Positions 1,598 through 14,750 of a stretch of DNA of 64,000 bases are shown in pieces (position 1 is the first letter of the stretch; each line of letters starts with the position of its first letter). The notes under the pieces are model-generated. The model saw nothing but the letters and a program-made list of their open reading frames with translations. It did not search any database and was not told where the DNA came from. The position numbers were made by a program, and so were the translations under genes. The stretch is from assembly GCF_918741295.1 (NCBI RefSeq), contig NZ_CAKKNB010000001.1, positions 1,582,806 through 1,646,805 of the forward strand, in the 5' to 3' direction. The DNA comes from Aquabacterium sp. CECT 9606. Lineage in GTDB: Bacteria > Pseudomonadota > Gammaproteobacteria > Burkholderiales > Burkholderiaceae_C.

Positions 1598-3373
1598 TTA
1601 GGGCTTGTGAACCAGCTTGGACAGTTCGACCAGGCCTATTGGCGGGCAGATCAACCAGGGCACCGTGAAGATCCGCTTGGCCAGGCCGGCGGACATGCGC
1701 TCCATCTGCCGGCGCTCACCGGCCAGCCGCGCGGCCAGCAAGGGGTCGTGGGTACCCGCTGCCAGAACGCTCTTGTTGAGCACCCAGGCGTGAGGCTCGA
1801 TGCCGGCGCGGCGCAGATCGTCTTGCAAGGCCGAGGCCTGCGACACGGGGGTGGCTTCGGGCAAGGTCACCAGAATGATCTTGGTGTAGGCCGCATCTTG
1901 CAGCCGCATCAGTGGCGTGATCACATGGCTGGTGCCGCGACCTTCGAACTCCCGCGTCATCTGCCGGTGGTAGGCCCCGGTGGCGTCCATCAGCAGCAGG
2001 GAGTGCCCGGTGGGGGCCGTGTCCAGCACGACGAAGGCACTGCGTGCTTCACTGACGGTGCGTGAGAATGCATGGAAGACGGCGACTTCCTCCGTGCAAG
2101 GGGATTGGAGATCTTCCAGCAACAGGGCCTGTTCCTGCGCATCAAGCTTGGGTGACTTGGCCGCCATGATCCGGTCGATGTAGCGCTGCGTTTCGACCTT
2201 GGGGTCGATCCGGTCCACACGCAAGCCGGCCACCTCGCCTGCGAGGGTGCCCGTCAGGTGGGCCGCAGGATCCGTGGTGCTCAGGTGCACGGACTTGCCG
2301 CGCTGGACCAGACCCAAGGCCAATGCCGCGGCTACCGTGGTTTTGCCGACGCCGCCTTTGCCCATGACCATGATCAGGCCGTGCGGGCTCGCGGCCAGTT
2401 TGTCGGCCAAGGCGTCCAGGCCTTGCAGGGGCTCGGCGGGCTGGGCGGGTTCGGCCACGGCCATGCCCGCGTTGATGATGGCATCTGCTGGCGAGAGCAG
2501 GGCGCGCAAGGCGGGCAGGCCGACGGTGTCGAAGGCCCGCAGGGGTACCTGGTCCTGAGGCAAGGCGCGCAGCGAGGTGGGCATGTCCGCCAGTGCCTGC
2601 TGCTCCAATGCTTCGATGGCGTTGGCCACCAGGTCGGTGTGGTCGCTGGCATGGAACACCCCGTTGATGGCGAGGCGCTGGTTGTTCAGGCCCAGCTCGC
2701 GCAGCTCGTCCGAGGTGCGGGCCGCCTCGGCCATGGCGCCTTTGTCGGCCCGGGTGACAAGGACCACGGTGGTTCTGGCCGGATCGCTCAGGGCCTCCAG
2801 GGCCGCCTTGAAGCGCGCCTCCTGCATCTTCAGGCCCGAATGCGGTCCCAGGCAGGAGGCGCCTCGGTCGTTGCCGCTCAGGAAGCCACTCCAGGCTTTG
2901 GGCAGGCTGAGCAGCCGCAAGGTGTGGCCGGTGGGGGCCGTGTCAAACACGATGTGGTCAAAGTGCTGAGCGCCGTCCGAGAAGAGGGCGGCGAACTCAT
3001 CGAACGAGGCGATCTCGGTGGTGCAGGCCCCGGACAGTTGTTCGCGCACGGTGGCGAGTTCAGCAGGGCTGGCGCCGGCGTCCATTTGAGCGATGACACG
3101 CTGGCGGTAGGCTTGCGCGGCATTGTCGGGGTCAATGTTCAAGACCGACAAACCTGGCGCACCCGGCACGGCGGTGGGGGTGTTGTGCAATTCGATGCCC
3201 AGCATTTCGTCGAGGTTCGACGCGGCGTCGGTGCTAACCAGCAAAACGCGTTGGCCGGAGTCTGCCAGGGCCAGTGCCGTGGCGGTGGCCAGCGACGTTT
3301 TACCGACACCACCCTTGCCGGTGAAGAGCACGTGGCGGGTGGCGTGGTTCAAAAAGCTGGGGGCTTGGTTCAT
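1598..3373 (-). CDS. arsA: ArsA-type double-domain ATPase
   Basis: Two deviant Walker A motifs (GKGGVGKTSLA, GKGGVGKTTVA), two DTAPTGHT/S motifs, and Cys in GACTTEIASFDEFA, GASCLGPHSGL, SPCTEEVAVFHAFS; start at ATG 3373, the rest of the 752-aa ORF is upstream read-through. Confidence 0.9.
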   Translation of the reverse strand: MNQAPSFLNHATRHVLFTGKGGVGKTSLATATALALADSGQRVLLVSTDAASNLDEMLGIELHNTPTAVPGAPGLSVLNIDPDNAAQAYRQRVIAQMDAGASPAELATVREQLSGACTTEIASFDEFAALFSDGAQHFDHIVFDTAPTGHTLRLLSLPKAWSGFLSGNDRGASCLGPHSGLKMQEARFKAALEALSDPARTTVVLVTRADKGAMAEAARTSDELRELGLNNQRLAINGVFHASDHTDLVANAIEALEQQALADMPTSLRALPQDQVPLRAFDTVGLPALRALLSPADAIINAGMAVAEPAQPAEPLQGLDALADKLAASPHGLIMVMGKGGVGKTTVAAALALGLVQRGKSVHLSTTDPAAHLTGTLAGEVAGLRVDRIDPKVETQRYIDRIMAAKSPKLDAQEQALLLEDLQSPCTEEVAVFHAFSRTVSEARSAFVVLDTAPTGHSLLLMDATGAYHRQMTREFEGRGTSHVITPLMRLQDAAYTKIILVTLPEATPVSQASALQDDLRRAGIEPHAWVLNKSVLAAGTHDPLLAARLAGERRQMERMSAGLAKRIFTVPWLICPPIGLVELSKLVHKP

Positions 3374-3468
3374 GCTGCATTTTGATCGAATGGTCTGGCA
3401 TGTGCGCCAGTTCTCCTGCTTCGATTTGCGCTGCATCAAGCGCGTGCAGCGTCTGGGCGTGCCACCCG

Positions 3469-3840
3469 TCACTGACTGGCCATCGCTGGCACCATCCGAA
3501 ACCAACCAGGCTGCTGCTGTTGGTAGACCCTCAGCCACATCAGGGTGGCGGGCACCAGCGAGCGGATGGCGAACATCAAGGCGTCGTCCAGCGCTGGGCC
3601 CGCGCGGCCTGACAGCGCCACGCCTGCGGCCGTCAGTCCGCGCCAGTCGATCTCGGGCATGCCTTGCATCAGTTCCTGGGGAAGGCATTCGGTCGTCTGG
3701 ATCAGCAGGCGCAACTGTCGCGTCACTTCGGCGCGGGTCAGCCGCGAGGCCAACAGCTCGAAATCTTCCAGGCCTTCGGTGAGGATCATCACCGCCAGGC
3801 CAGCGTCGTTGATGGTTTTGAGCAAGGCTGCGCCGTACAT
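3469..3840 (-). CDS. HEPN (HepT/DUF86)-like protein, probably degenerate
   Basis: LIQTTECLPQELMQGMPEIDWRGLTAAG resembles the HepT core; R-x4-6-H motif not seen. Confidence 0.5.
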   Translation of the reverse strand: MYGAALLKTINDAGLAVMILTEGLEDFELLASRLTRAEVTRQLRLLIQTTECLPQELMQGMPEIDWRGLTAAGVALSGRAGPALDDALMFAIRSLVPATLMWLRVYQQQQPGWFRMVPAMASQ

Positions 3841-3852
3841 GGTGGGGCTCCT

Positions 3853-5436
3853 TCATTCAGGGGAAGGCCTGCTGCGCGAGCACAGCAGGTCATTGGTGGC
3901 CCAGGCAAACTCGCGCCAGGCGGCGGCCAGGTCCACCGTGATGGCCTGGAGGTAGTCGGCATCGGGCCGGTGTTCCGTGTCGAAATTCGACAAGGCGCAG
4001 GAGCTGGCATTGAAGGCCAGGGCGTCATTCACCAGGCTCTTGCTGAAACCGCTGAAGGGCGACAGAACTCGCGGTGTCAGCTCGCTGCGGCCCGAGGGGA
4101 CCGCCGCATGGTTCACGCCCCAGCCCACTTCCAAAGCGGCCAGTTGCTCCAAGGCGCGGGTGTAGGTTTGCTCCACCGTGGCCAGCAAGGCGCGTTGAGT
4201 GACGCGGTCGCGGTCCTGGCGGGCCAGCATCTGGTTCAAATGCTGCCGGTAGCGAGGCATGGTTCCCTGGCGCTCTTGCTCAACCCAGGCCTGGAAGCTC
4301 AGCAGGGCGTCGCCTTCAAGGGGCTGGTGGGTGAACGGGTCAGTCTGTCGACGTGGGCGCAGGAAGTCGGCCAGGCGGGCGGCTGATTCGAGGGCGCCTT
4401 CCATGTGGCCGGCCGCGTGACGCGCGGTTTCGGTGCCCCCAAAGAGCAGGCGGCCGGACCAGTGCGGCCGACGCAGCAGCGGGTCGGCCTGCGGGGGCAT
4501 GGGTTCGGCGTCGCTGCGGTCCAGTTCGCTGCAGGTCCAGGTATCCAGGCTCCAGTCCTTCACCAACACCGAGTCGGCATGCGCTTCGGGGCCGAACAAT
4601 TGGGTGAACTGGCTGGAGGTGAGCAAGGGCAGGCTGCGTTCGAAGGGTCGCCGGGTGTCCGGGGCCATGGCGCAAAAGCCGACCAGCGCGGCGCCTTGTT
4701 CGTCGCTGGCATCCCAGACTTCGCGCAGCACGGCTTGAGGATGGCTGACAAAGGCGCTGCCTGATTGTCCTTGCGCATGCCAGAAAGGGCGTTCAAAGCG
4801 GGCCACCGCCTTGGCCTCGCGCGCCATCCAGGTCGGCACGGTGGTCAAGGCCTGGGTTGTGGATGGCGACAGCGCTGGCTGAAAGCGAACCAATTGGGCC
4901 AACAGGCGCGGTGGCAGGGTCAGGACCACGCGACGCGCCGCCACCCGTTCAACGTGCTGGACGCCACTCTCCACGCGGGCAAAGTGCAACTCGACGTGGT
5001 CTTGGGCATCGTGGACCGCCACCAGTCGATGGTCCAGCTTGACGATGCCCTCCAGCAACTGTTCATGCAGTGACTGAGTCAGCTGGCCCATGCCCCCGGA
5101 CAGGCGGCGCGCACCGCCATGGATGCCTTGCACGTCCAGCACGTCGGGTGCGCGGGCAGGGTCGGCCAGCGACAGCACGTGGCCCTGGTCTGGCTGAGCA
5201 AAGGACTTGAGGGCCAGGGACTCGACCAGCGCGGCCATGCGGGGCTCGGTGTCGGGCCAGTACCAGCTGGCACCCAGGTCCACACGGGCACCCGACCCTG
5301 CCGAGGCATCGGTGAGGATGCGCCCGCCCACGCGGTCTCGCGCTTCGAACATCGCCACACGCAGGCCCTGAGCTTGCAACGAGCGCGCCAGGGCCAAACC
5401 CGTGAGGCCCGCGCCGACAATCGCGACGTCGATCAT
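3853..5436 (-). CDS. FAD-dependent amine oxidase family protein
   Basis: MIDVAIVGAGLTGLALARSLQAQGLRVAMFEARDRVGGRI (FAD Rossmann), GRLLFGGTETARHAAGHMEGALESA near the end of the oxidase core. Confidence 0.85.
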   Translation of the reverse strand: MIDVAIVGAGLTGLALARSLQAQGLRVAMFEARDRVGGRILTDASAGSGARVDLGASWYWPDTEPRMAALVESLALKSFAQPDQGHVLSLADPARAPDVLDVQGIHGGARRLSGGMGQLTQSLHEQLLEGIVKLDHRLVAVHDAQDHVELHFARVESGVQHVERVAARRVVLTLPPRLLAQLVRFQPALSPSTTQALTTVPTWMAREAKAVARFERPFWHAQGQSGSAFVSHPQAVLREVWDASDEQGAALVGFCAMAPDTRRPFERSLPLLTSSQFTQLFGPEAHADSVLVKDWSLDTWTCSELDRSDAEPMPPQADPLLRRPHWSGRLLFGGTETARHAAGHMEGALESAARLADFLRPRRQTDPFTHQPLEGDALLSFQAWVEQERQGTMPRYRQHLNQMLARQDRDRVTQRALLATVEQTYTRALEQLAALEVGWGVNHAAVPSGRSELTPRVLSPFSGFSKSLVNDALAFNASSCALSNFDTEHRPDADYLQAITVDLAAAWREFAWATNDLLCSRSRPSPE

Positions 5437-5458
5437 GGCATGGGCCTCCACGCGTCGC

Positions 5459-5755
5459 TCAGACGAAGCTGAGCAGTTCGATGGTCACGGGCTCTTCGCC
5501 AAGCAGGGTCTGGCAGGCCAGCCGCGACTTGGAGCTGACGCCCACGATGGCGTCCAGGGCTTCGTTCTCTTTGCGCTGCACTTTGGACAGGCTCTTGCGG
5601 CCTTCCTGCACATACAGGTGGCAGGCGCCGCATTCGCCCTTGCCACCGCACTTGCTGATGATGGCGGCGCCCGCGTCCTTGATGGCCTGCAGCAGGGTGG
5701 TGCCTGCGGGGGCGTCGAAGGTGATGCCGGCGGGCAGGATGGTCAGCGTGGTCAT
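5459..5755 (-). CDS. 2Fe-2S (plant-type) ferredoxin
   Basis: CGGKGECGACHLYV ... LACQTLL cysteine pattern. Confidence 0.9.
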   Translation of the reverse strand: MTTLTILPAGITFDAPAGTTLLQAIKDAGAAIISKCGGKGECGACHLYVQEGRKSLSKVQRKENEALDAIVGVSSKSRLACQTLLGEEPVTIELLSFV

Positions 5756-5790: not shown

Positions 5791-6660
5791 TCAGGCCGCG
5801 GTCAACAACGCCGCCACCTCGGCCAGGGGTTGGGCGATGCGGGTGACGTTGTTTTCTTCCAGGAAGCGCACTTCCATGCGCGTGGGCTCGTCGGGCAGGA
5901 CGGCCCAGTGGCGGTCGCTGGAGCGCTTCATGATCTGGCGGGCAAAGCTGCGCGTGAGCTGGTCATTGAAGCGGCAGCCCAGGAACAGGAAGCCGCGCCC
6001 GGTGCGCAGTTGCTGCACCTCGGCCGGGATGGGCGTCTGGATGTCGATCTCGGTCAGCACTTCCACATAGTCCGAGTCGGACACCAGGTAGTTGCCGGCG
6101 GGCGCGTGGCCGCCGATGGGCCGGTACACGAGCGACTTCCATTCGGGCGGGCAGCTTTCAGCCAGCTGCCCCAGGGCATCGTAGAAAGCTGTCCAGGTGC
6201 CAAAGTGCTCGGACTGCGCCAGGCCTTGCACCTGGCCCCAGTCGGCGGCCGGGTGCGTCTGTGCATAGGCCGTGGTCAGGGTGTCGTCGTACCAGCTTTC
6301 CACCACCAGTGGGGGCGCCACCTTGGCCAGCCACAGGTGAAAGGCGCTGGGGACGGCGGGCTGGGCAAAGGCCTCGTTCATCAGGCTGACCACGCTCTTG
6401 CGGTGCTTGAAGTTCTCGATGAACTGCGCGGCCTGGGTCAGGCGGTTGCGGATCTTGTGGGGCACGGTGGCCTTGGCCACCAGCAGCGCCACCAGGGCCT
6501 CGGGGGTGGCGGGCACCGGGGCATCGGGGATCAGCTCCAGAATGCGCGGGCCCAGGTAGGGCACGATGCGGCCCTTCTTGAGGCCATTGCTCAGCTCGGC
6601 GAGCCAAGGCGGGGCGGTCACCGCCACGGGGGCGTCGGTCATGGTCATGTGCAACTCCAA
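5791..6660 (-). CDS. SIR2-like domain protein, nif-operon associated
   Basis: C-terminal architecture GNYLVSDSDYVEVLTE...LRTGRGFLFLGCRFNDQLTRSFARQI resembles SIR2_2-type proteins. Confidence 0.6.
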   Translation of the reverse strand: MELHMTMTDAPVAVTAPPWLAELSNGLKKGRIVPYLGPRILELIPDAPVPATPEALVALLVAKATVPHKIRNRLTQAAQFIENFKHRKSVVSLMNEAFAQPAVPSAFHLWLAKVAPPLVVESWYDDTLTTAYAQTHPAADWGQVQGLAQSEHFGTWTAFYDALGQLAESCPPEWKSLVYRPIGGHAPAGNYLVSDSDYVEVLTEIDIQTPIPAEVQQLRTGRGFLFLGCRFNDQLTRSFARQIMKRSSDRHWAVLPDEPTRMEVRFLEENNVTRIAQPLAEVAALLTAA

Positions 6661-6665
6661 TGAGC

Positions 6666-7820
6666 TCAGTAGATGGCGGCCCCAGCCCCGACGTTGACCG
6701 AGGCGTCCTTGAGCGTCTTGACGATGTAGCTGACCTCGTCTTCGTCCAGGTGGGTGTGAAAGGGCAGGGTGAGGGATCGGTCACCGATGCGCTCGGTGTT
6801 GGGCAGCAGCCCGCGGTGCCAGCCCAGTTGCTGGTAGTGAAACTGCTGATGCAGCGGCACGCAGTAGATCGCCGACTGGACCGAGTTCGAGTCCATGTCT
6901 TCGATGATCTGGTTGCGCGCGCTGCCGGTGAAGCGCTTGCCCAGGTGGATCTTGTAGAGCATCCAGTGGACCTCGTCGATGTGTTCGGCCAGGTAGGGCG
7001 GCTTGATGCCTTCGAAGCTTTGCATCTGCGTGTGGTACCAGCCTTCGACCTGCTTGCGCTTGAGCAGGATCTCGTCAATGCGCTGCAATTGCGCCAGACC
7101 CAGGGCGGCATCCAGGTCGCTCATGCTGGCTTGCCAAGGCACGCGGCTGCCCACCGACACCGAGTTGCGATCACTCAAGCGGCGTTCTCGTAGGTAGCCC
7201 AGTTCACTGGCCAGGGCGGGGTCGTCGGTCAGCACCATGCCCCCTTGCCCGCAGCACAGGGCCGAGGGCTGCGAGAAGTCGAAGATCGACACATCGCCGA
7301 AGCTGCCCACGCGGCGGCCCTGGTAGCGTGAGCCCACCGCTTCGGTGCTGTCCTCGATCAGCTTGAGGTCGTGCCGGGTGGCCAGTTCGCGCAGGGCTTG
7401 CCAGTCGGCAGGGTGGCCGTTGACGTTGGAGGCCAGGATGGCGCGGGTGCGGGGGCCGACCTTGTCGGCAGCTTTGACCGGGTCGATGCAGCCCGACCAA
7501 TAGTCGATGTCGGCCAGCACGGGCGTGGCGCCCACCAGGGAGATGGCATGGGCGACCTGGTGCCAGGCATAGGCGGCGGTGATGACTTCATCGCCCGGGC
7601 CAATGCCCATGACCTTGAGGGCCAGGCAGGCGCCCAGGGTGCCGCTGCCCACGGCCGCGCCATGCGACCGGCCCACCCATTGCGCAAAGGCACTTTCAAA
7701 CTCGTTGACCGCCGGGCCGGCGGACAGCTGGCCGCTGCGCAGGGCCATGACCACGGCCTCCAGCTCATCGCCGGTGATGTCGGGGTCGGACAGGGCAATC
7801 CAGTCGTCGGGGGCGTCCAT
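6666..7820 (-). CDS. DegT/DnrJ/EryC1/StrS-fold aminotransferase-like protein
   Basis: FESAFAQWVGRSHGAAVGSGTLGACLALKVMGIGPGDEVITAAYAWHQVAHAISLVGATPVLADID; EDSTEAVGSRYQGRRVGSFGDVSIFDFS. Confidence 0.85.
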   Translation of the reverse strand: MDAPDDWIALSDPDITGDELEAVVMALRSGQLSAGPAVNEFESAFAQWVGRSHGAAVGSGTLGACLALKVMGIGPGDEVITAAYAWHQVAHAISLVGATPVLADIDYWSGCIDPVKAADKVGPRTRAILASNVNGHPADWQALRELATRHDLKLIEDSTEAVGSRYQGRRVGSFGDVSIFDFSQPSALCCGQGGMVLTDDPALASELGYLRERRLSDRNSVSVGSRVPWQASMSDLDAALGLAQLQRIDEILLKRKQVEGWYHTQMQSFEGIKPPYLAEHIDEVHWMLYKIHLGKRFTGSARNQIIEDMDSNSVQSAIYCVPLHQQFHYQQLGWHRGLLPNTERIGDRSLTLPFHTHLDEDEVSYIVKTLKDASVNVGAGAAIY

Positions 7821-7837: not shown

Positions 7838-8098
7838 TCAGTCTTGCGTGAGCACAAAGGCCGATGCGCGTTCGGGCAGGGCGGTGACCGACCAGCAGTG
7901 ACCATCGGTGGCCATGAGGTAGAGCGCGCGGTTCTGCACTTGCAGCGCGGGCGACTCGCTGCGCATGTCGAAGGCGTCCAGCACCAGGGCGTGCGCGGGC
8001 GCAAAGCGCTCCCGGATGACCGCAGCGGCCGCCCGCACCGTGGTTGCGGAGCCCAGGATCTGCCCGGCCTCCTTGAGTTGATCAGGCGTGATGGCCAT
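7838..8098 (-). CDS. Small nif-associated protein (DUF6129-like)
   Basis: MAITPDQLKEAGQILGSATTVRAAAAVIRERFAPAHALVLDAFDMRSESPALQVQNRALYLMATDGHCWSVTALPERASAFVLTQD; between DegT-like and nifT genes. Confidence 0.6.
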   Translation of the reverse strand: MAITPDQLKEAGQILGSATTVRAAAAVIRERFAPAHALVLDAFDMRSESPALQVQNRALYLMATDGHCWSVTALPERASAFVLTQD

Positions 8099-8108
8099 GG
8101 TGGTGGCC

Positions 8109-8330
8109 TCAGACTTCTTCGCCGGTCGTGGTGCGGCGTGCTTCCACGGTGATCGGCAAGGTGGTGCCCTCGGGCATGTCGGGCAGGGCCAGTTGCCAGC
8201 CATTGGCCAGCGTGACCAAGCCACCCCACATGCCGGGGTGCTCCATCGACACGATGGGTTCCTCCAGGTCTTTCTTGGGCACGTACACCGACGTCACACC
8301 GTTGGGTGCCTTGCGAATCATGATCTTCAT
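8109..8330 (-). CDS. nifT: Nitrogen fixation protein NifT/FixU
   Basis: MKIMIRKAPNGVTSVYVPKKDLEEPIVSMEHPGMWGGLVTLANGWQLALPDMP, characteristic NifT. Confidence 0.92.
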   Translation of the reverse strand: MKIMIRKAPNGVTSVYVPKKDLEEPIVSMEHPGMWGGLVTLANGWQLALPDMPEGTTLPITVEARRTTTGEEV

Positions 8331-9526
8331 GCAAATGCTCCTGAGGGAAATGCGGGGTGGCCTGCGGCGGCGGCCTGCTCGGCCATCAGTGGGGCCAGTT
8401 CGGCGGGCAGGCGGTCAAGCACCATCTGGATCTGCGCCGAGGTGGTTTGTGTCGACAAGGAAAAGCGGATGGCGCACAGGGCCTCTTCTCGGGGGATGCC
8501 CATGGCGCTCAGCACGAACGAGGGTTCGTTGCCACTGGCGGAACAGGCGGCCCCGGACGAGGCCATGATCCCGAGGCGTTCCAGGCGTTGAAGCACCACG
8601 TCGGCGTGCAGGTGGCCAAAGCGCAGGTAGCTGGTGTTGGGCAGGCGGGTGGCCTCGCCACCAAAGACCACGGTGCCGGGCAAGCGGCTGAGGAGCCCCT
8701 GCTCCAGTTGATCCCGCAGGCGCGTTTGCGAGGCCATGTGGTGGAACCAGGCCTGCGGCGCCATGGTCAGTCGTTCGGCGGCGGCGGCCAGGCCCAGGAT
8801 GCCGGGCAGGTTCTCGGTGCCGCCCCGCCTGGCGCGTTCCTGCGAGCCTTGGTACAGGGCCGGCCAGTTCAGGCCTTGACGCACGATCAGGGCGCCGACC
8901 CCCTTGGGGCCGTGGAACTTGTGGGCCGACAAGGAGACCAGGTCGGCCCCGGACTTGTCGAAGTCAAAGGGGAGCTTGCCGATCAATTGGGTGGTATCCA
9001 CGTGCAGCATGGCGCCTTGCGCGTGGGCCAGCCGGGCCATCTCGCCAATCGGCATCAACACGCCGGTTTCATTGTTGGCCGCCATGATGGACACCAGGGC
9101 CACGTGCGGCGTGACCAACTCGCGCGCCTGCGCCATGTCCAGCGTGCCTTGGGGCGTCAGCCCGATCCAGCCCAGATTCACGTGTTGGCGCTGGGCCAGG
9201 TGCCGCGCCAGCTTCTGCACGCCCGCGTGCTCGGCCGCGCTGAGGACCAGGCCCTGTCGGCCATTGAAGCCCACGGCCCCGCGCAAGGCGATGTGGTTGG
9301 ACTCGGTGGCACCGCTGGTGAACACCACTTCAGCCGGTTTGCACCCCAGCATCCGTGCCAGCTGCGTGCGGGCCTGTGTCAAGGCCTGCCGGGCCTCCTG
9401 GCCCATGGCGTGAGTCGATGAGGGGTTGGCCCAATGCCGGACCAGTCCCTGTGCCACTGCGCCCATCACTTCCGCCATTGGCGACGTGGTGGCGTTGTTG
9501 TCCAGGTAGATGTGGTCGGTGTTCAT
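8327..9526 (-). CDS. nifS: Cysteine desulfurase NifS
   Basis: IYLDNNATTSPMAEVM..., PLP Lys in SLSAHKFHGPKG, catalytic Cys in SSGAACSASG; nif context. Confidence 0.9.
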   Translation of the reverse strand: MNTDHIYLDNNATTSPMAEVMGAVAQGLVRHWANPSSTHAMGQEARQALTQARTQLARMLGCKPAEVVFTSGATESNHIALRGAVGFNGRQGLVLSAAEHAGVQKLARHLAQRQHVNLGWIGLTPQGTLDMAQARELVTPHVALVSIMAANNETGVLMPIGEMARLAHAQGAMLHVDTTQLIGKLPFDFDKSGADLVSLSAHKFHGPKGVGALIVRQGLNWPALYQGSQERARRGGTENLPGILGLAAAAERLTMAPQAWFHHMASQTRLRDQLEQGLLSRLPGTVVFGGEATRLPNTSYLRFGHLHADVVLQRLERLGIMASSGAACSASGNEPSFVLSAMGIPREEALCAIRFSLSTQTTSAQIQMVLDRLPAELAPLMAEQAAAAGHPAFPSGAFA

Positions 9527-9876
9527 GGCCAAAATACCCGGGTGGGGTCCAGGCAGACCTCGTCCAGCAGCGGCTGGAGGTGGTGGCACTCGTCATGCAG
9601 AACCCAACGGTCATGCACGTGGTCGCGAAAGTAAAGCGACCACATGCCTTCCGCCGGTTCGAGCCAGGCGATCGAGATCACACCACCAGAGGGGTCGATG
9701 TTGCGCGAGCAGCAGGGGCTGCTGACGACCCAGCCCGGCGCGCTGGGCGCCCGTTCCACCTGGGGCTGCACATAGCGGTAGCGCACCCGCTGCCGCAAGG
9801 CACGCTCGATGCGCACGCGGTCCATGTCGTGGACGACGGCCTGCATGGCGGGCATGGGGGCGGCCAGGGTGTTCAT
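9523..9876 (-). CDS. nif-associated hypothetical protein (DUF3024-like)
   Basis: C-terminus VLHDECHHLQPLLDEVCLDPTRVFWP resembles DUF3024; 4-nt overlap with nifS start. Confidence 0.6.
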   Translation of the reverse strand: MNTLAAPMPAMQAVVHDMDRVRIERALRQRVRYRYVQPQVERAPSAPGWVVSSPCCSRNIDPSGGVISIAWLEPAEGMWSLYFRDHVHDRWVLHDECHHLQPLLDEVCLDPTRVFWP

Positions 9877-9891
9877 GGAGGCACTCGCTCG

Positions 9892-10188
9892 TCAACCGTG
9901 CAACAGGCGCAACTGGCCCCGCGATTCCGCCAGCATCTGGTCCAGCTCCTGGCACAGCAGGATCTCTTCTTCCAGGCAACCGACGACCAGGCCGTCGAAC
10001 TCGACCATGTAGACCGGCTGGTTGGCCTCGACGTGTCGGCCCACCTGAACGATCTCGCCTTCGCTGCCCATGCTGGCCAGGACCGCGTCTGGCGCATGGT
10101 CGGGGTGGGTGCCATCGTTGACCAGGTCGACCAGCGCGACCACTTGCTGTCCCCATTGGTATTGGGGCTCACGGGGTTCGATCATCAT
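9892..10188 (-). CDS. nifZ: NifZ-family protein (second copy)
   Basis: MIEPREPQYQWGQQVVALVDLVNDGTHP...GEIVQVGRHVEANQPVYMVEFDGLVVGCLEEEI. Confidence 0.8.
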   Translation of the reverse strand: MMIEPREPQYQWGQQVVALVDLVNDGTHPDHAPDAVLASMGSEGEIVQVGRHVEANQPVYMVEFDGLVVGCLEEEILLCQELDQMLAESRGQLRLLHG

Positions 10189-10196
10189 GGGGGACC

Positions 10197-10532
10197 TCAT
10201 CGCAGTTGTTTGAGTTCATCGGCACGTTCGCCCAGCTGGGCCAGGATCTCGTCGGGCAGCTTGTCCAGCGTCATCAGTTCCTTGGCGCGCATGCCGACGC
10301 GGTAGCCGTGGTCGGTGAACTCCACGGCGTAGATGTAGAACTGCTGCAGGAAGGTGCCGATGGAGCACACGTAGCCCACATCGCCTTTGCGCACCAGCAC
10401 CTCGCCAATGTCCTTGCCATTGAAGGTGCCGTCGTTGCGGATGATGGTGCGGCTGACCACGCGCTCGCCAAAGCCAAAGCGCGGCGGATCGGCCACTTCA
10501 ATCAGGTTGTCGTCGCGGTTGATGTCACCCAT
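10197..10532 (-). CDS. nifZ: NifZ family protein
   Basis: PPRFGFGERVVSRTIIRNDGTFNGKDIGEVLVRKGDVGYVCSIGTFLQQFYIYAVEF. Confidence 0.92.
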   Translation of the reverse strand: MGDINRDDNLIEVADPPRFGFGERVVSRTIIRNDGTFNGKDIGEVLVRKGDVGYVCSIGTFLQQFYIYAVEFTDHGYRVGMRAKELMTLDKLPDEILAQLGERADELKQLR

Positions 10533-11313
10533 GCTGCGCTCCCAGTGAGGTGGCCGTGCGGTCAGGCATCAGGCGCTGACGCGCCACGGCGCGGATGTCG
10601 TCGTCGGGGTCCTTGATCATCATGATGAGCAGGTGCCGGTCTGCCCGTTGCGCGACTTCCCAACGAACCATCAGGTCGGTGTCATGTGCCAGGCGGCTCA
10701 GCAAGGGCACGGGCAGACGCCGGGCCACGATGCGGCGCACTTCGCTGGCCCGGTCGTCGGCCATGCGCAGCAGGGCGGGCATCTCCAGGCGCTGCGCCAC
10801 CTCCTGGCGCACATCGCTTTGCGGGTCGCTCATCATTGAAGGCAGCAGTGCCTGGGGCAAACGCCGCGCCACCAGCTGCCGAACGTAGTAGTCCGGGTCT
10901 TGCCGCATGGAGGGCAGGGCGCTCATGTCCAGGCGATGAGCCACGCGGATGCGCACTTCGCGGTGCGGGTCGTCGCGCAGATTCATCAAGGCGCGTTGCG
11001 GCAGGCGCAAGGCCAGTTGCAGGCGCACCGTTTCGTCCGGGTCGTGGATCAGGTCGGTCAGGCGAAACACATCGGCGTAGCGAACGGCGATGGCGCGCAC
11101 CTCGAAGTAGGGGTGGGTCAGCAACTCGTTGGCCAGCTGCGGGTTCCAGTTGAAGAAGCGGTCGATGCGGCGGGCGTAGCGGTCTTGAACGCAGGCGCGG
11201 CCAGGCTCGCACCGAGCCTCAGCCAGTAGGCTCTGGTAGTGGCAAGCCTGGCAGGCGACGGGCATGCCCTGCCAGTCCACCGATTCGATGTCATTGGAGA
11301 CCAGGTCCATCAT
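10525..11313 (-). CDS. Leucine-rich-repeat-variant (LRV) protein with N-terminal Fe-S cysteine motif
   Basis: CQACHYQSLLAEARCEPGRACV followed by tandem repeats of the type D-P-x-x-x-VR-x-x-VA-x-RL. Confidence 0.85.
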   Translation of the reverse strand: MMDLVSNDIESVDWQGMPVACQACHYQSLLAEARCEPGRACVQDRYARRIDRFFNWNPQLANELLTHPYFEVRAIAVRYADVFRLTDLIHDPDETVRLQLALRLPQRALMNLRDDPHREVRIRVAHRLDMSALPSMRQDPDYYVRQLVARRLPQALLPSMMSDPQSDVRQEVAQRLEMPALLRMADDRASEVRRIVARRLPVPLLSRLAHDTDLMVRWEVAQRADRHLLIMMIKDPDDDIRAVARQRLMPDRTATSLGAQHG

Positions 11314-12542: not shown

Positions 12543-14123
12543 TCAGGCCGCTGCTTCAGAGGTGTAGGCCCCCTGGCGGATGGAGGCATCGCCCCGTGGC
12601 TGGTGGGTGATGTCGCCTCGTGCCAGCCGGTCGGCGTAGTCGGCAAACCAGCTCAGGGCGGCTTTTTCGATGAACTCGTGGGCATAGGCATCCACAGGCT
12701 CGATGCCCGCAGCCTTGAGCTCGTCACGCGGGCAGGCGCCGATCTTGGCCACCAGCACGGCGTGGCAGTCATTGATGGCCTTGACGATGGAGGGCAACTG
12801 CTCGTCTTCACCAAAGCCACCCTGACAGTACAGGTCCACCCGGCGATGCCCCACGAACAGGGCCTCGGCGGCCGACACCTCGAAGATCTGGAACTCGGTG
12901 GCATGGCCAAAGTGCAGGTTCACGCGGCCGTGCCCCTCGGTGGCCACGGCCACCAGCACCTTCATGTCGGGATCGACACCGGCGCGTTCCACCTGGGCGC
13001 TCAGGGCCTCTTGCTTGGCAGCGTGCTGGGCTTGGCGTTCGGTTTCCACCTTGTCCTGGTAGTCGCGCCGCTTGTCCAGGTCGTACACGATCTCCATCTC
13101 TTCGATCTTGTCGAGCGTGAACTCTTCACTGCGGTCTTCGCCCAGCAAACCGACCGCATCAGCGCGGCATTGCCTGCAATGGCGCATCAGGTTCGCGCCG
13201 CCCATGCAGGCGTCTTGCACGGCCTTGAGTTCTTGCGCGGTCGGCCCGCGTTGGCCGGTCAGGCCGAACACCGTGCCGTGCTCGGCTTCCGAGATCAGCG
13301 GCATGATGTTGTGCAGGAAGGCGCCGCGCTTCTTGACTTCGCGGTTCACCTCGATCAGGTGCTCGTCGTTGATGCCGGGGATCAGCACCGAGTTGATCTT
13401 GGTGAGCACGCCGCGCGCGGTCAGCATCTCCAGGCCCAGCATCTGGCGCTCGTGCAGGATCTTGGCGGCCTCGTAGCCGGTGACGCGCTTGTGCTGCCAG
13501 AAAATCCAGGGGTAGATCTTCTCGCCCACGGCCGGGTCCACCATGTTGATGGTGATGGTGACGTGGTCGATGTTGTATTGGCAGATTTCATCCACCAGGT
13601 CGGGCAGGGCCAGGCCATTGGTCGAGATGCACAGCTTGATGTCCGGCGCCGTTTCCTGCAGCATGCGGAAGGTGTCGAAGGTCTTCTTGGGGTTGGCCAA
13701 TGAATCGCCGGGGCCCGCCACGCCCAGCACCGTCATCTGCGGGATCTCACTGGCCACGGCCAGCACCTTCTTGACCGCCTGCTCAGGCGTGAGCTTTTGC
13801 GAGACGACGCCGGGGCGGGACTCGTTGCTGCAATCATATTTGCGATTGCAGTAGTTGCATTGGATGTTGCACGCTGGCGCCACGGCCACGTGCATGCGGG
13901 CATAGTGGTGGTGGGCTTCTTCCGAGTAGCAGGGGTGGTTCTTGACCTTGTCCCAGATTTCCTGCGGCATGTCATCGGGGCCGCCAGATGATCCGCAACT
14001 GGCCTTGCCTTCACCGCCGGTGGTGCCACAGCCGCCCGAAGGTTCAGGCGTGATGGCGGCGCCCAAGGGCCGGATTTGACCGATGCCGATGAAGGCTTTC
14101 GTCGCGAGTTGCGGTGCGTCCAT
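12543..14123 (-). CDS. nifB: Nitrogenase cofactor biosynthesis protein NifB (radical SAM with C-terminal NifX-like domain)
   Basis: [22 protein letters not shown] radical SAM/NifB signature; C-terminal [26 protein letters not shown] domain. Confidence 0.97.
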
Positions 14124-14169
14124 GTGGTGTTCCCCGTCCAAGAGTTGAGGCTCGTTGCCAAGCCAGCAT

Positions 14170-14185
14170 TGCCAGTTCCGTGCCA
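14170..14185 (-). promoter_or_regulatory. Putative sigma54 -24/-12 promoter of nifB
   Basis: Minus strand TGGCACG-GAAC-TGGCA vs consensus TGGCACG-N4-TTGCW (one mismatch), 47 bp upstream of the nifB ATG. Confidence 0.75.
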
Positions 14186-14280: not shown

Positions 14281-14296
14281 TGTCAGATCTCTGACA
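14281..14296. promoter_or_regulatory. NifA upstream activator sequence
   Basis: TGTCAGATCTCTGACA = TGT-N10-ACA, in the divergent nifB/nifQ intergenic region. Confidence 0.85.
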
Positions 14297-14335: not shown

Positions 14336-14350
14336 TGGCACAGCTCTTGC
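14336..14350 (+). promoter_or_regulatory. Putative sigma54 -24/-12 promoter of the NifQ-like gene
   Basis: TGGCACAGCTCTTGC: GG and GC in sigma54 spacing, 49 bp upstream of ATG 14400. Confidence 0.8.
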
Positions 14351-14399: not shown

Positions 14400-14750
14400 A
14401 TGAACGACATGCTGATCCCCAAGCTCGCAGTTCACGACGAGGTTGCTGACCTGGTCGTGCTGCTCACGGAGCACGCGACTCACCCGGGGGTACTGGCCCG
14501 GCACCTGGCCCAGGCGGTGGCCGAAGCCTGCATGGGCCCCAACCACCTGTGGGAAGACCTGGGGCTGGGCAACCGCGCGCAACTGGGCGCCCTGATGCAG
14601 GAGCACTTCACGTCCTTGAAGGCCCTCAACCACAAGGACATGCGGTGGAAGAAGTTCCTTTACCGCATGCTGTGCGAGCGCGCCGATGTGCTCATCTGCA
14701 AGTCACCGCATTGCGAACAATGCGAAGACCAGCCCCTGTGCTTTGCCTAG
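14400..14750 (+). CDS. nifQ: Short NifQ-like protein
   Basis: RWKKFLYRMLCERADVLICKSPHCEQCEDQPLCFA contains C-x4-C-x2-C-x5-C; 116 aa. Confidence 0.8.
   Translation: MNDMLIPKLAVHDEVADLVVLLTEHATHPGVLARHLAQAVAEACMGPNHLWEDLGLGNRAQLGALMQEHFTSLKALNHKDMRWKKFLYRMLCERADVLICKSPHCEQCEDQPLCFA

Follow-up and report, generated by a model that had tools for sequence, protein, structure and literature searches.

What does a protein with the fold of a sugar aminotransferase do in a nitrogen fixation (nif) operon when the lysine that should hold its cofactor is gone? The question is raised by one gene (6666–7820, minus strand) in a 64,000-nucleotide stretch of Aquabacterium sp. CECT 9606 (contig NZ_CAKKNB010000001.1, positions 1,582,806 to 1,646,805), the whole of which is called the window here. 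The original prediction had noted that the Schiff-base Lys of DegT/DnrJ/EryC1/StrS aminotransferases is replaced by Ser in the encoded protein and that two adjacent Cys are present, and it had offered three options: a ColD-like PLP enzyme, a pseudoenzyme scaffold, or a Cys-based Fe-S, metal, or persulfide function. We favor, at a probability of roughly 55%, a PLP-free and nif-specific pseudo-aminotransferase that would act as a binding or scaffold protein with an accessory part in the maturation or protection of nitrogenase. The literature searched, which leaves out most subscription papers, contained no description of a DegT protein tied to nif or of the missing Lys. Annotated plasmid records call these genes DegT/DnrJ/EryC1/StrS aminotransferases, a label that points readers to sugar biosynthesis.

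The nif DegT protein and its fold

The reading frame is unbroken from ATG to stop and encodes 384 amino acids. The product matched the Pfam HMM PF01041 with 310 bits (cut-off 19.8) across positions 2–359 of the 360 in the profile, and with the cut-off exceeded over the full model it is a member of the DegT/DnrJ/EryC1/StrS family by homology. The AF2 model (pLDDT 78.5, pTM 0.82) shows a predicted fold-type I aminotransferase fold, and the nearest fold returned by Foldseek was that of GDP-perosamine synthase (3dr7/3bn1; TM 0.86–0.90). The DegT sugar aminotransferases, among them GDP-perosamine synthase (3dr4/3bn1) and ArnB (1mdo), have the same fold and length at ~29–34% identity in structural alignment and TM 0.86–0.90, and share with the nif DegT protein the Asp that faces the pyridine N1 and the glycine scaffold. 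Unlike them, the nif DegT protein has no Schiff-base Lys, carries Asp in place of the phosphate-binding Ser and Pro in place of Gly at position 228, and has both an extra conserved C-terminal tail and a nif-operon context. The earlier statement that the rest of the fold looks intact thus stands for the scaffold, on the AF2 and Foldseek results, and fails for the cofactor pocket, where the residues that would hold PLP are changed.

Residues at the lysine site and in the PLP pocket

Residues were counted in an alignment of 37 members of the nif DegT family with 42 canonical DegT proteins, the latter picked mainly by PF01041 score and therefore a yardstick and no full count; ColD and other known exceptions without the Lys lie outside this canonical set. 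The motif stretch FDFSQPSALCCGQGG covers residues 180–194 (bases 7283–7239), and the Schiff-base position falls on Ser186, encoded by TCG (7263–7265, minus strand), as the original prediction had it in both residue and coordinates. In this column Lys is found in 42/42 canonical proteins, and the family has Ser (28), Gly (4), Leu (2), Ala (2), or Gln (1), with neither Lys nor His in any of the 37 sequences; the nif-linked homologues, in which a retained Lys would have spoken against the prediction, thus leave it standing. As the loss recurs in independent isolate genomes as well as in metagenome bins, it is neither a sequencing error nor a one-off. Conservation above 80% in the family is reached by only two lysines, K273 (which is invariant) and K371, neither of which aligns to any PLP contact listed for Spr1654. 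It was by this alignment that the other refuting condition of the original prediction, a Lys conserved at another place in the active site, was assessed.

The contacts of PLP in Spr1654 are the Schiff-base Lys199, Ser194 at the phosphate, Asp170 at N1, His173 at O3', and Tyr84 (PMC5936713). The phosphate-binding Ser, five residues ahead of the Lys, is not present in the family: it is Ser in 42/42 canonical proteins versus Asp181 in 37/37 family members (codon at 7278–7280, minus strand). The Asp to N1 is retained as Asp157 (42/42 and 37/37), and position 160, which in most canonical proteins is the Gln or His that meets O3', is Glu in 37/37 (Asp157 to Glu160, 7341–7352, minus strand). A fully conserved Gly (42/42) is Pro228 in 35/37 family members (7137–7139, minus strand). 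The ring-stacking position is still aromatic (W86, or Phe), and position 61 is Thr in 32/38 rows of the alignment. When the columns at least 98% conserved among canonical members were compared, most scaffold positions (E42, G135, D157, F182, G193, Y262, and P353) were found to be kept. As the Spr1654 equivalents of the changed positions contact PLP, the residues lost are those that hold it, and the alignment shows a loss of the predicted PLP-binding set: the Lys, the phosphate Ser (to Asp), and the O3' ligand (to Glu). Loss of the Lys alone is no proof against PLP binding, as solved Lys-to-Ala mutants of the DegT fold include PLP complexes (4oca, 3nys). The loss is specific to the nif DegT protein, since the Lys (K204) and Cys (C329) of the neighboring NifS-like protein are retained.

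The nif DegT family and its own conserved residues

Relatives were drawn from named genomes, from class, phylum, and family genome samples, and from plasmids. Their identity goes down to 49%, with a wide score gap between the family and the next DegT proteins (384 vs 183 bits). After four diagnostic columns had been removed, tree building placed the 37 sequences together on one side of a branch (SH-aLRT 100), and this clade spans beta-, gamma-, and alphaproteobacteria. The dN/dS values against close relatives (0.05–0.34) indicate that the gene is no pseudogene and show a signature of purifying selection across the compared sequences. In a separate observation, the copy from an Aquabacterium metagenome (L025, 3565–4558) is split into two frames just past the motif, either through an assembly error or as a broken gene.

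Residues invariant in this family only include Y107, W108, N132, W140, E160, S164, F174, D181, P185, F269-E270-G271, K273, H292-L293-G294, R296-F297, and H355, and SFEGIK and HLGxRF are family-only motifs; H136 is 97% conserved and N132 is found in 37/37. A conserved C-terminal tail (residues 371–384, KDASVNVGAGAAIY; 6669–6710, minus strand), missing in canonical proteins, follows a long C-terminal helix and has the pattern KDxxxNxGAGAAIY, with K371, D372, N376, G378, A379, G380, A382, I383, and Y384 invariant. In the AF2 model pLDDT is low at 378–384, which would fit a segment that becomes ordered on binding a partner, although a low score by itself does not establish it.

Genomic context and co-occurrence with nifD

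The gene sits in a nifB-fdxN-nifZ operon, and the order nifB-fdxN-hesB-TPR-LRV-nifZ-nifZ-DUF3024-nifS-like-nifT-DUF6129-like-DegT-SIR2/Fdx recurs, with gains and losses, in beta-, gamma-, and alphaproteobacteria. All window features given in this section are on the minus strand. The operon begins with nifB (12543–14126; Radical SAM and Nitro_FeMo-Co domains) and includes a 4Fe-4S leucine-rich-repeat-variant (LRV) gene (10525–11313; PF05484 and PF01816), two nifZ genes (9892–10532; PF04319), a gene for a NifS-like cysteine desulfurase with both Lys and Cys in place (8327–9529), and nifT (8109–8330; PF06988, 103.9 bits). A small gene (7838–8098) had zero matches in a Pfam search and was assigned by synteny, its counterparts in other clusters being annotated or scored as DUF6129. 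The NifS-like protein scores 372 bits against TIGR03402, under the NifS equivalog cut-off of 530.75, and represents a second, NifS-like desulfurase; its K204 and C329 are at least 95% conserved (n = 33 sequences), and the Lys-retaining gene is within 7 kb of the DegT gene in 29/36 loci. Directly downstream of the DegT gene lies a SIR2-like gene (5791–6648; PF13289), within 7 kb in 36/36 loci, followed by a 2Fe-2S ferredoxin gene (5459–5755; PF00111) that is nearby in 28/36. SIR2-like nif proteins are mentioned in the literature found and not studied there; in a Rhodobacter capsulatus nifA double mutant the protein was undetected, and hence it is NifA-dependent in that organism (PMC6925177). 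In the SIR2-like protein of the window, a PYLGP motif is conserved and the stretch EVLTEIDIQTPIP is highly conserved. In P. sprentiae (L067, 11099–13444), both the NifS-like and the SIR2-like genes are truncated and the DegT gene is intact.

The nif link that had been proposed is borne out by this location and by the distribution of the gene. In the family sample the DegT gene was present in 7/7 genomes with nifD versus 1/144 without, the sole nifD-negative carrier being a bin that is 65% complete (hand-calculated Fisher test, ~3e-11, with no correction for kinship). In the phylum sample, nifD and LRV accompany the gene in 6/6 carriers, as does a strong SIR2-like match, and 35 other nifD-positive genomes are without the DegT gene, which makes it nif-specific but not universal. 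Operon location and co-occurrence together point to a nif-dedicated protein.

The gene has also been lost or broken in nature. In the Mimosa symbionts P. phymatum and Cupriavidus taiwanensis, nifB, fdxN, nifZ, nifT, and the DUF6129-like gene are kept, and in the stretches read neither an intact DegT gene nor the TPR, LRV, DUF3024, NifS-like, and SIR2-like genes were found. P. phymatum retains a 40-residue DegT remnant, and the copy in Bradyrhizobium BWA-3-5 is frameshifted. In nodules, NifA controls the nif genes of P. phymatum, and a nifA mutant of this strain is Fix- (PMC8305402); nitrogen fixation in this strain therefore proceeds with no intact DegT protein. Loss or breakage in some nodule symbionts makes the protein accessory, and its dispensability there counts against regarding its role as settled.

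Proposed role and alternative explanations

Of the three options originally offered, the pseudoenzyme scaffold is the best supported, with the Lys and phosphate Ser gone and both fold and selection kept. The nif DegT protein shares its ancestry with the DegT-fold sugar aminotransferases. Their fold is kept in it and the PLP-binding residues are gone, so that it is almost certainly no aminotransferase and would probably work by binding. The former cofactor pocket, which by homology would be lined by Asp157, Glu160, and Asp181, with Asn132 and His136 also fixed, may hold a new ligand or may stay closed. The GAGAAIY end of the tail and the SFEGIK and HLGxRF motifs could dock a partner encoded alongside in the nif module, for which the SIR2-like protein is the most plausible candidate, and the DegT protein would thereby aid NifB/FeMo-co or nitrogenase maturation or protection with no essential catalytic step. 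We infer the oligomeric state, the binding or scaffold action, the partner, and the step that is helped. A more specific version, in which a sugar-aminotransferase fold became a nitrogenase-assembly factor with the SIR2-like protein as partner, docking through the tail, and a novel ligand in the acidic pocket, such as a small molecule linked to a nucleotide or bound to a metal, is tentative; if true, the aminotransferase label has hidden a functionally new class of Nif protein.

The conserved polar residues of the pocket could equally mean new catalysis, which is the main rival to the scaffold. A cofactor-independent or metal-dependent enzyme, using the acidic pocket (D157, E160, D181, N132, H136) for PLP-free catalysis or to bind a metal, would explain why that pocket is invariant without drift (D157, E160, D181, and N132 in 37/37; H136 in 97%). 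We nonetheless regard it as unlikely, for a precedent was not found and position 186 drifts among Ser, Gly, Leu, Ala, and Gln, so residue 186 is not catalytic; that the substrate of such an enzyme would be a small molecule linked to cofactor assembly is likewise a doubtful supposition. ColD (GDP-4-keto-6-deoxymannose-3-dehydratase) also has a DegT fold without the Lys, and it has His188 at that site and still uses PMP. An enzyme of this kind, with non-covalent PMP driving a dehydration, would fit the retained Asp157 and ring-stacking aromatic (W86, or Phe) and the Thr at position 61 in 32/38 rows. Such PLP chemistry, one of the options first offered, is disfavored and improbable, because the Lys site of the family drifts and is never His (Ser, Gly, Leu, Ala, or Gln only) and because the phosphate cup is altered, with Asp for Ser in 37/37 and Pro for Gly228 in 35/37.

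In serine palmitoyltransferase, LCB1/SPTLC1, of the fold-type I PLP proteins, has lost its Lys and persists as a non-catalytic subunit beside LCB2; it sets a precedent for the nif DegT protein, although it belongs to a different family and is eukaryotic, and unlike it the nif DegT protein has no obligate active partner identified. The corresponding idea, an inactive subunit of an active PLP protein of the operon, would draw on the Lys-retaining NifS-like gene within 7 kb in 29/36 loci. We consider it quite improbable: the NifS-like gene was not detected at its usual place beside the DegT gene in four loci (L050, L052, L055, and L056), it is truncated in P. sprentiae with the DegT gene intact, and the two proteins belong to different fold-type I families. 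The clusters without it weaken the case for the NifS-like neighbor as an obligate partner. A canonical DegT protein as obligate heterodimer partner was also considered and rejected; four carrier genomes (G013, G169, G262, and G479) gave no further DegT match at E < 1e-30, which is evidence against it.

That Cys189-Cys190 (7251–7256, minus strand) forms an Fe-S, metal, or persulfide center is very improbable. C189 is Cys in ~78% of the family and Fe-S genes surround the DegT gene, but C190 is absent in several lineages, both Cys are missing in at least three (TT, TA, and TM) that hold the same operon place, and no Cys is invariant in the alignment of 37; a Cys at the second position is also found in 11/42 canonical enzymes, ArnB included. 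The pair as a functional center, as suggested at the outset, is thus unsupported and, not being conserved, rejected. The chance that the gene is a decaying sugar-aminotransferase relic carried in the operon, as the frameshifted copy in BWA-3-5 and the remnant in P. phymatum might suggest, is slighter still to our minds; for the family as a whole this is already contradicted by the dN/dS of 0.05–0.34 and by dozens of invariant residues, some of them new to the family.

The sequence evidence points to a nif-only protein that probably lacks a working PLP site. Together with NifZ, NifT, LRV, SIR2-like, and DUF6129 proteins, it belongs to an operon and module of nif accessory genes, and unlike the others it carries an aminotransferase annotation. 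It would offer a case, from bacteria, in which a fold-type I PLP enzyme has become a conserved protein that no longer uses PLP; it would also be a candidate unrecognized part for proteobacterial nitrogenase assembly, relevant to the transfer of nif clusters between hosts.

Candidate regulatory sites and flanking genes

Upstream of nifB lie a candidate sigma-54 promoter for the operon (TGGCAC-N5-TGGC with one mismatch; 14171–14185, minus strand) and a candidate NifA upstream activator site (TGT-N10-ACA; 14281–14296). The argument for both is their position, and TGT-N10-ACA matches are no commoner in the window than expected by chance. On the far side of the ferredoxin gene, and on the same strand, are genes for an ArsA-type ATPase and an FAD amine-oxidase-like protein (1598–5451, minus strand); near the DegT gene, the FAD gene is found in 12/36 loci and the ArsA gene in 1/36, and both therefore fall outside the conserved module. 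A short gene divergent from nifB and upstream of it (14412–14750, plus strand) encodes a protein with a Cys-rich end reminiscent of NifQ, and an exact sigma-54-like site (14336–14350) accompanies this gene.
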